In this document: positions 37,261-53,031 of the stretch, in pieces | Position numbering within the stretch: position 1 is the stretch's first letter | Layout: every line of letters begins with the position of its first letter | NCBI RefSeq assembly: GCF_000144695.1 | Contig: NC_014378.1 | Coordinates: 1,491,833-1,555,832, forward strand | DNA: 64,000 nt | DNA from: Acetohalobium arabaticum DSM 5501 | Lineage (GTDB): Bacteria > Bacillota > Halanaerobiia > Halobacteroidales > Acetohalobiaceae | Direction of reading: 5' to 3' | Program-made: the position numbers and the translations under genes | Notes under the pieces: generated by a model | Database searches by the model: none | What the model was told of the DNA's origin: nothing | Seen by the model: the letters and a program-made list of their open reading frames with translations, nothing else

Positions 37261-38376
37261 TCACTCCTTATAGTCCGGATAGCCTACAATCAGAATATCA
37301 TTGCCTATAGTAGACAGTTCATAATCTCCAAGTTCGATTCCATCAGCTACTTTATCAACCCCTTGACCGCCAACTGCTTGCACAGCCTCACTGCCCCCGA
37401 TGAGTTTAGGAGCAATAAAATAAAGAATCTTATCTACCAGCTCTGTAAATAAAAAAGAGGTATTAATCCGGCTTCCCCCTTCTACTAATAGACTCATAAT
37501 CTCCATTCTACCTAACTCAGCCAGTAAGGAATCAAGATCTATCCTTCCCTGCTTGTCCGGCAGAAAGATAACCTCAACTCCAGCCTCTTCTAGTTTAGCT
37601 GCTTTTTCTTCATCAGCAGTCTCAGCTGCAGCTACTACTGTTTTGGCTTCAGATTCTTGAGTAACCAGATTGGAATCCAGCGGAATCTCTAACCTGCTGT
37701 CTAGTACTATCCGGATTGGATCCTGGCCATCCTGCTCAGGCAATCTAGTAGTTAACCGCGGATTATCAGACAGGACCGTTCCAATCCCAACCAAAATTCC
37801 ATCAACTTCATCCCGCAGTCGGTGAACATATCGGCGGGATTCTTCTCCGCTAATCCACTTGCTGTCACCGGTTTTAGTTGCAATCTTGCCATCCAGAGTC
37901 ATAGCATTCTTTAAGATTACAAAGGGACGTTCTGTAGTAATATACTTTATAAATGCCTCATTTAACTCTTTAGCCTCCTCTTCTAATAAACCGCTTTCTA
38001 CTTCAATTCCTGCGTCAGCCAGCTTCTGTAACCCCCGGCCGGCTACTTTAGGATTTGGATCTTTCATTGCCGCTACTACTCTGCTTACCCCCGCTCCGAT
38101 TAACGCCTTAGTACAGGGCGGAGTCTTTCCGTAATGAGAACAGGGCTCTAGTGTAACATAGACTGTTGCATCTTCTGTTTTGTCAGCTGCATCCTGTAAA
38201 GCATTGACTTCAGCATGCGGCTTACCTGCAGCATGATGGTAGCCTTGCCCTACTATCTCGCCATCCTTAACAATCACTGCTCCTACCATGGGATTAGGAC
38301 TGGTTCTGCCCCGTCCTTTAGCTGCCAAATCCAGAGCCAGCCTCATATAATCAATATCTCTATTATAATCCGCCAT
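37261..38376 (-). CDS. ribD: Bifunctional riboflavin biosynthesis deaminase/reductase
   Basis: 371 aa. The N-terminal deaminase domain has the zinc motif HAEVNAL and PCSHYGKTPPC. The C-terminal reductase domain (from about residue 150) has VILKNAMTLDGKIATKTGDSKWISG and LLVEGGSRINTSFLF. It catalyses two consecutive steps after GTP cyclohydrolase II. First gene of the operon, preceded by a foldback element and an FMN riboswitch. Confidence 0.96.
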   Translation of the reverse strand: MADYNRDIDYMRLALDLAAKGRGRTSPNPMVGAVIVKDGEIVGQGYHHAAGKPHAEVNALQDAADKTEDATVYVTLEPCSHYGKTPPCTKALIGAGVSRVVAAMKDPNPKVAGRGLQKLADAGIEVESGLLEEEAKELNEAFIKYITTERPFVILKNAMTLDGKIATKTGDSKWISGEESRRYVHRLRDEVDGILVGIGTVLSDNPRLTTRLPEQDGQDPIRIVLDSRLEIPLDSNLVTQESEAKTVVAAAETADEEKAAKLEEAGVEVIFLPDKQGRIDLDSLLAELGRMEIMSLLVEGGSRINTSFLFTELVDKILYFIAPKLIGGSEAVQAVGGQGVDKVADGIELGDYELSTIGNDILIVGYPDYKE

Positions 38377-38443
38377 CTAAACACCTCATTTCTATTTTAG
38401 AATCATGCATTCACTTAATACATACTTTCCCAGTTAACCTGCT

Positions 38444-38704
38444 TTTATTAATATAATATATCACTTTATTGTAGTGCATTATCCAGGCTAAAGCTGCAGA
38501 ATTATAAATAATCTTGTGCAGTTATTATTGATATATTTCAAAAAGCAACTTAAAGCAGCCCCAAAAGAAAAGAGGATTAAGATATAAAGTAGAAGTTTTA
38601 AGCCATAGCTTCAAGTATAATTTATTGCTAATTGATGAGGGCTGATTTTGGCAGCGTTTGAAATATATCAACTCTCAAGTGACGCATCATATTATATTAA
38701 TAAA
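38444..38704. repeat. 261-bp foldback (MITE-like) element in the rib leader
   Basis: Terminal inverted repeats of 16 perfect bases (TTTATTAATATAATAT at 38444-38459; its complement at 38689-38704) are extended by CACTT/AAGTG. An internal pair TTGATATATTTCAAA/TTTGAAATATATCAA (38528-38542 and 38657-38671) encloses CAGCCC/GGGCTG. The left arm has an extra CTGCA/TGCAG hairpin. It encodes no protein. It lies between the FMN riboswitch terminator and ribD, so it is transcribed as part of the rib leader. It may be a MITE or a fixed RNA structure; no clear target duplication is seen. Confidence 0.6.
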
Positions 38705-38708
38705 TGAA

Positions 38709-38737
38709 AAAATTCCCAAAGTAACTCCGGGAATTTT
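38709..38737 (-). terminator. Riboswitch-controlled terminator of rib operon
   Basis: 9-bp stem AAAATTCCC/GGGAATTTT with an 11-nt loop, followed on minus by TTCATT. It sits about 25 nt downstream of the FMN aptamer and is the likely expression platform. Confidence 0.8.
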
Positions 38738-38761
38738 ATTCAGGCCTAACAAGGCCGTAGA

Positions 38762-38910
38762 TGTCTTCTCCCCTCCAGACTTTACTGTCGGTTTTGGAAT
38801 CTCACCAAATCAACCATTATAGGCTCGCGGACTGAATCTTCAAGCTACTGAAACTCCAAGCTAAAGATAATACCGCCGGTTAGGAATTCCACCTAGTCCC
38901 GAAGCAGTAA
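38762..38910 (-). promoter_or_regulatory. FMN riboswitch (RFN element)
   Basis: On the minus strand the conserved blocks appear in order: GGTGGAATTCCTAACCGGCG, AGTCCGCGAGC, TGGTGAGATTCCAAAACCGA and CAGTAAAGTCTGGAGGGGAG. It is followed by a terminator and then the ribD operon, so FMN binding should stop transcription of the riboflavin genes. The 5' part of the leader (to about 38960) presumably contains the promoter, which I could not fix. Confidence 0.95.
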
Positions 38911-38972
38911 TATTCAATTCTCTATATTAGAATATTCTATAGCCAATAGCTAATTCCTTGTTTCAATTTAAA

Positions 38973-39620
38973 CTATTTACAGCTTTCTTGTAGGTCAACA
39001 ACTGCTTGTCCAGGATCATCACTGCCAAAGATAGCAGAACCGGCTACTATTACATTAGCCCCAGCCTCAACTACTCGGTCTACATTATAAGGCTTAATAC
39101 CTCCATCAACCTGAATATCAATATCTAAATTATTCTGCTCAATTCTTTTTCGTAATCTATTTATTTTAGGCAGCATATCCTCGATAAACTTCTGTCCCCC
39201 AAAACCGGGATTGACTGTCATTAGCAACACAAGATCAAGTTCCGGCAGAATATGGTCTAAAGCTGTTAGCGGTGTAGCCGGATTCAAAGCCACTCCAGCC
39301 TTTACCTCCTGCTCTTTAATATTCTGGACTGTACGATGCAGATGGGGACAGGCTTCAGCATGGACTGTAATTAACTCAGCCCCGCTATCAGCAAAATCAG
39401 GGATATACTGGTCCGGATTCTCAATCATTAAATGAGCATCCAACAGTTGATCTGTTTTATCACTAATAGCCTCAACTACCAGCGGTCCTATAGTAATATT
39501 AGGTACAAAGTGGCCGTCCATTACATCTAAATGTAGATATTCCGCTTTACTGACCTGCTTTATCTCCTCTTCTAAATTACTGAAATCAGCTGCTAAAATT
39601 GATGGTGCAATCTTTACCAT
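38973..39620 (-). CDS. rpe: Ribulose-phosphate 3-epimerase
   Basis: 215 aa TIM barrel. Signatures are KIAPSILAADFSNLEEEI, YLHLDVMDGHFVPNITIG, LLMTVNPGFGGQKFI and DGGIKPYNVDRVVEAGANVIVAGSAIF. It interconverts ribulose-5-P and xylulose-5-P. The start overlaps the rsgA stop by 7 bp. It is the last gene of the rsgA/prkC/priA run. Confidence 0.97.
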   Translation of the reverse strand: MVKIAPSILAADFSNLEEEIKQVSKAEYLHLDVMDGHFVPNITIGPLVVEAISDKTDQLLDAHLMIENPDQYIPDFADSGAELITVHAEACPHLHRTVQNIKEQEVKAGVALNPATPLTALDHILPELDLVLLMTVNPGFGGQKFIEDMLPKINRLRKRIEQNNLDIDIQVDGGIKPYNVDRVVEAGANVIVAGSAIFGSDDPGQAVVDLQESCK

Positions 39621-52911: not shown

Positions 52912-53001
52912 TCAATGCCACCACATCTCCTAGGAATTAGCACCATGCAGGTTGCTGGTTGCCGGGCTTCATCGGGCCTGTCCCTCCGCCGCTCTTGATG
53001 C
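52912..53001 (-). promoter_or_regulatory. SAM-I (S-box) riboswitch controlling metK
   Basis: On minus the conserved blocks are ATCAAGAGCGGCGGAGGGAC, GGCCCGATGAAGCCCGGCAA, CCAGCAACCTGCATGGTGCT and AATTCC, which match the S-box core (AGAG, GA-GAA/CCGGCAACC, GGTGCTAA-TCC). SAM binding should favour the downstream terminator. Confidence 0.95.
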
Positions 53002-53031
53002 AGTATTTACAACCACATAAATACACTTAAT

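Follow-up and report, generated by a model that had tools for sequence, protein, structure and literature searches.

The bacterial MITEs RUP, Correia/NEMIS, and ERIC provide the comparison class for the segment analyzed here, which lies in the rib leader of Acetohalobium arabaticum DSM 5501. As described in two articles (PMC2229807, PMC10969869), these elements are short, encode no protein, carry inverted repeats, occur in many intergenic copies, show strong base pairing, and duplicate their target, and the present family resembles them in these features. On the other hand, the present family is longer and modular (median of 478.5 bp between its inner repeats), and a comparison by description sets it apart from RUP, Correia/NEMIS, and ERIC by its 19-bp outer ends, its 6-bp duplication, and the lack of any partner IS among the loci searched.

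A modular repeat within a riboswitch leader has a precedent in the pneumococcal BOX element, which is flanked by two T-box riboswitches in the trp leader and is co-transcribed; the authors of that study state that the riboswitches still work (PMC3049150). That case concerns another organism and another riboswitch, and the present repeat, known from its sequence, is located past the terminator. Possible repeats within riboswitch leaders are also mentioned in a review (PMC10969869). Within the same order, Halanaerobium hydrogeniformans contains a PATE-like derivative of IS200/IS605, described as an ends-only element of about 271 nt (PMC7290912), and the present family is likewise short and ends-only. 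The present family has inverted ends and a 6-bp duplication, whereas the ends of IS200/IS605 elements are subterminal hairpins and are not known to be accompanied by target duplication.

We interpret the segment, with a probability of roughly 85%, as one member, now decayed, of a non-autonomous family of MITE-like foldback elements, inserted between the FMN-riboswitch terminator and the Shine-Dalgarno sequence of ribD. Most probably it is a passenger that the leader tolerates, and not a conserved RNA switch. No description of this MITE-like family was found in searches of the PMC literature. The family has ends and a target duplication that can be measured in several genera of halophiles, and the ends that its members have in common could be used to track down the missing transposase.

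Setting and structure of the element in the rib leader

The window, i.e., the whole stretch of 64,000 nucleotides that was analyzed, contains the following features of the rib leader, listed from ribD to the aptamer.

37261-38376, minus strand: ribD (ORF of 371 aa; homologues in 25 of 26 genomes)
38382-38387, minus strand: ribD Shine-Dalgarno sequence GAGGTG, outside the element (from the sequence; modeled mean unpaired probability of 0.88)
38402-38704, no strand assigned: whole inserted unit, a decayed MITE-like foldback (repeat family, flank homology, absence from the sister leader)
38402-38443, minus strand: A-type outer end, a diverged family end reading ...GTTAACTGGGAAAGTATGTATTAAGTGAATGCATGAT in the rib sense (common to L116, L015/L008, L157, and L159)
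38444-38459, no strand assigned: outer inverted-repeat arm (exact complementarity)
38528-38671, plus strand: 144-bp family-conserved core between the inner arms (58-sequence alignment, consensus helix, inner arms)
38689-38704, no strand assigned: outer inverted-repeat arm adjoining the terminator (exact complementarity; the high flank is at background)
38709-38737, minus strand: intrinsic terminator of the riboswitch, outside the element (13-pair stem and T-run, both also in the aligned sister leader)
38759-38910, minus strand: FMN riboswitch aptamer RF00050, outside the element (Rfam 95.9 bits, gathering threshold 66.2)

In the rib sense, the element starts four bases past the terminator stem (38709-38737); the original prediction had placed it five bases after the riboswitch terminator. 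Because of its position between the terminator and ribD, the element is expected in every read-through rib mRNA. Since the aptamer, the terminator, and the Shine-Dalgarno sequence all lie outside it, its effect on rib control is likely to be small. A riboswitch leader can thus accept a hairpin of 300 nt with its working parts intact.

The outer arms (38444-38459 and 38689-38704, 16 nt) and the inner arms (38528-38542 and 38657-38671, 15 nt) are each 100% complementary. When 38380-38760 was shuffled 100 times with its dinucleotides preserved, the longest perfect inverted repeat per shuffle ranged from 7 to 11 nt, as compared with 16 nt in the actual sequence. The predicted 16-bp terminal and 15-bp internal perfect repeats are exact and go beyond the shuffle maximum of 11. 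The rib-sense strand has a predicted fold of -56.3 kcal/mol (z = -3.05; none of 200 shuffles was equally stable), and the opposite strand also folds well (-61.6, z = -2.92). G+C content is 29.4% for 38402-38704 as compared with 38.5% for the whole window; the window copy is AT-rich and strongly base-paired, as expected of a MITE, and it has terminal inverted repeats in the form of its 16-bp arms, matched at the family level by inverted outer ends (19 pairs, one of them spurious). No ORF can be assigned to the window copy, the longest being 48 codons, in agreement with its predicted non-coding nature. The AT-richness of the region (29.4% G+C) would favor chance pairing; nevertheless, the idea that the palindrome arose by chance, or that it is a fixed component of the rib leader, has next to no likelihood, because shuffles reach 11 bp at most, dozens of further copies exist, and the sister leader lacks the element.

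A repeat family in the A. arabaticum genome

The genome is a single contig of 2,469,596 bp. A search with the element DNA yielded 40 scored places among 119 candidates, mostly corresponding to the inner part. A 33-base core pattern matched 67 times and two inner-repeat patterns matched 80 and 47 times, and the reversed controls gave no match in any case; the many other copies to be sought under a MITE reading are thus present. Grouping of these marks within 900 bp gave 82 clusters, 67 with the core, nine with paired inner repeats only, and six with single marks. Elements with both inner repeats (n = 60) span 278-1864 bp, and the two longest contain a nested IS3-type element. Five groups consist of copies that lie in differing flanks and have 98% identity or more across over 95% of their length; such a pattern indicates recent spread. 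As in MITEs, the copies are dispersed and contain no transposase gene of their own.

Among 63 distinct cores, 58 were aligned; those omitted were L058 and L064 (nested insertion), L089 (short), L120 (long), and a second reading of L116 from the opposite strand. The alignment shows conserved arms around a variable middle, and the consensus helix has double-sided changes at four of its 25 pairs. The 1450 pair cells comprise 1436 Watson-Crick pairs, five G-U pairs, five A-C pairs (equivalent to G-U on the other strand), and four others; they do not show selection for either RNA strand, the wobble counts being small.

A palindrome of ~60 bp is nested in the cores of L058 and L064 and is found elsewhere within L052 and L061, representing a second small repeat. 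The copies L050, L051, L054, and L068 are 99.2-100% identical over 532 bp, and they have nothing in common outside the inner repeats, where no target duplication was found. In the 60 elements, the flanks outside the inner repeats resemble a degenerate palindrome, reading outward approximately TWWARYTKYA, and the second and third bases of the right flank are never G or C.

Outer ends and target duplication

Elements related to the family are also present in other Halanaerobiales. In complete relatives, the ends are formed by an inverted 19-bp motif (TTAAGTTGACGYAYATGAT when read outward), which sits outward of the inner repeats and adjoins subterminal sequence of either type A or type B. When 122 ends were compared with a B-type query, 13 scored at least 24, among them the end from which the query was taken; 0.9 were expected, and one of 81 control stretches scored as high. 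The pattern TTAAGTTGACGYMYATRAT was present in seven of the 12 genomes searched, with nine matches in the A. arabaticum genome and 25, 15, 5, 5, 2, and 1 in the others; the reversed control gave 0-5 matches per genome, and in the two genomes with the fewest matches, G010 (two) and G011 (one), the reversed controls gave five and two, so that the pattern is not above control there.

Inverted pairs of the motif were obtained for 13 elements at first and then for 19. Just outside the ends of seven of these 19 pairs there are exact 6-bp direct repeats; one further pair has a repeat of 5 bp, and none has one of 7-9 bp. Shuffling of partners gave a mean of 0.37 at 6 bp, and none of 1000 shuffles reached seven. 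The carriers are L191 and L197 in the A. arabaticum genome, L193 (G002), L198 and L203 (G004), and L224 and L228 (G009), and these exact duplications span four genera. The target duplication characteristic of MITEs is therefore a property of the family, seen in seven of the 19 pairs and separate from the window copy. The inner repeats were rejected as the site of target duplication, as no length from 1 to 12 was enriched at five start offsets in the 60 elements.

For the window copy, 38402-38443 matches the flanks of other copies, extending the repeat unit by ~42 nt past 38444, and the inserted unit was therefore set at about 38402-38704. The repeats originally predicted within 38444-38704 hold, but the end of the unit does not lie at 38444, because homology continues to 38402. 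A 24-base A-end pattern, built from the window copy and L116 and hence biased to both, fits L015/L008 with three mismatches, L157 with four, and L159 with five; by BLAST, L015 matches 38401-38468 at 75% (E = 3e-4). The automatic outer-end finder did not pick up the window copy, and against the B-type query both its ends score at background. No B-type end is present past 38704, where the high-coordinate side runs directly into the terminator. The window copy therefore appears to be decayed, having kept one diverged end (38402-38443) and lost the end on the terminator side.

We propose that the foldback family spread through this Halanaerobiales lineage and that one copy would have landed between the terminator and the Shine-Dalgarno sequence. 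Complete relatives have inverted TTAAGTTGACGYAYATGAT ends, 6 bp of duplicated target, and an interior formed by a palindromic modular hairpin, and the window copy retains one diverged end, the inner repeats, and the core, its terminator-side end being gone. Movement would presumably depend on a transposase supplied in trans. At low FMN, read-through of the terminator would make the hairpin part of the mRNA, whose structured leader would thereby grow by ~300 nt.

Recent near-identical copies have their interiors, and not their outer ends, in common, a pattern for which simple transposition of the outer unit does not account. The family may now change mainly by homologous recombination or by template switching at hairpins, the window copy being a relic that owes little to transposition. 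The shared interiors of recent copies speak for this, as do mosaics with segments in both orientations within a copy (L055, L075) and the negative transposase searches in the A. arabaticum genome, the outer-end pairs, and viral contigs. We nevertheless regard it as unlikely, if worth keeping in mind, given the exact 6-bp outer-end duplications in four genera and the empty sister leader.

Search for a mobilizing transposase

Neither the inner-repeat matches nor the 19 outer-end pairs contained a transposase with the ends of the family; an autonomous IS relative bearing these ends, which is usual but not required for a MITE, is thus missing among them. An inner-repeat scan of genome contigs gave 24 loci, three of them in Natroniella and the rest mostly single, chance-like matches; 18 loci, including some of these 24, were inspected by sequence. 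Viral contigs had no match to the family, and no further transposase was found at two unpaired motif matches in the A. arabaticum genome. Matches to Y1 transposases in this genome number nine.

Two candidates were rejected. An IS3-family element, nested in L069 and L070 and adjoining L049, has no ends in common with the family, and L221, the only long outer-end pairing (2223 bp), contains by its sequence ordinary genes and no transposase. G006 and G009 are probably the Natroniella strains found in the contig scan, since the flanks agree with those of the Natroniella loci. At five G009 loci (L219, L220, L222, L232, and L233), the contigs stop 100-150 bases past the outer motif, as if broken at repeats, and a longer autonomous copy could hide at such contig ends.

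Rib leaders of the sister species and other genomes

Of the 26 genomes, 25 have RibD, and the FMN aptamer was detected by Rfam in all 18 leaders tested among the 24 ribD loci outside A. arabaticum. In the sister species of the same genus, whose RibD is 77% identical, the gap between aptamer and ribD is 94 nt, as compared with 382 nt here, a difference of 288 nt. The terminator and the Shine-Dalgarno region both match in the alignment and flank the missing part; of the element itself, the sister leader aligns with no more than a short AT-rich run at the arm on the terminator side. Element DNA occurs in two of the 26 genomes, those of A. arabaticum and its sister, and the five sister matches are all at other sites. 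The segment is thus not kept in orthologous leaders, as a conserved cis-regulatory RNA would be; the sister represents an empty site, as the MITE reading anticipated. Loss in the sister rather than gain here may also account for the difference, which comes from one sister genome at 77% RibD identity.

The gap is 66-210 nt in 16 of the 18 leaders, 521 nt in L094 (G002), and 400 nt in L101 (G011). The L101 insert (L101:2710-2817) has the arms ATATTACGACACTTT and AAAGTGTCGCAATAT, and its DNA is present at tens of other sites in G011 (45 listed matches, part of which hit one place again in reverse). Copies of the L094 insert (L094:2631-3057) are likewise spread over tens of sites in G002 (101 matches listed). 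Each insert belongs to a different repeat family, and both are unlike the window element in sequence. These two cases could reflect recurrent insertion into a tolerant gap, and no enrichment is claimed. A broader picture, in which an order-wide Halanaerobiales superfamily with a common 19-bp end and 6-bp duplication, an almost completely turned-over interior, and mobilization in trans has repeatedly been inserted or retained in rib leaders, maybe tuning rib mRNA, is speculative and rather doubtful.

The question of RNA control

The original prediction had also offered an added layer of RNA control, and this idea is not supported by the evidence. Co-option of the element as a second rib control, e.g., as an attenuator or a nuclease entry site on read-through mRNA, would suit its stable predicted rib-sense fold (z = -3.05), its site between terminator and ribD, and the multicopy inserts at the same place in two other genomes, and the transcribed repeats ERIC and Correia affect mRNA processing according to one account (PMC2229807). 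We consider it improbable, because the sister leader is without the element, the L094 and L101 inserts differ in sequence, the pair cells show no strand bias (five G-U against five A-C among 1450), the Shine-Dalgarno sequence is open in the model with and without the element, copies between tandem genes are divided 12 and 12 by orientation, and no Rfam family scored above its threshold. A large leader structure alone is no evidence of regulation, a caution that applies to the rib operon.

In the modeled leader, the terminator forms unchanged with the element present, and the mean unpaired probability of the Shine-Dalgarno sequence is 0.88 with the element and 0.75 without it; the start codon is predicted to be mostly paired with the element (0.34 unpaired). 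A promoter inside the element was rejected, as two promoter-like sites in 38360-39000 compare with 2.5 expected by shuffling. Gene context was clear for 32 of the 60 elements (eight were ambiguous and 20 had flanks that were too short): 24 lie between tandem genes, 12 per orientation, six between convergent genes, and two between divergent genes. A tolerated passenger would show such a distribution, with which local effects are still compatible. No Rfam family reached its gathering threshold within the element, the only match being to intron D5 at 22.5 bits against 65.5. Elsewhere in the window, a SAM riboswitch (RF00162, 67.5 bits) is located at 52920-53004 on the minus strand.
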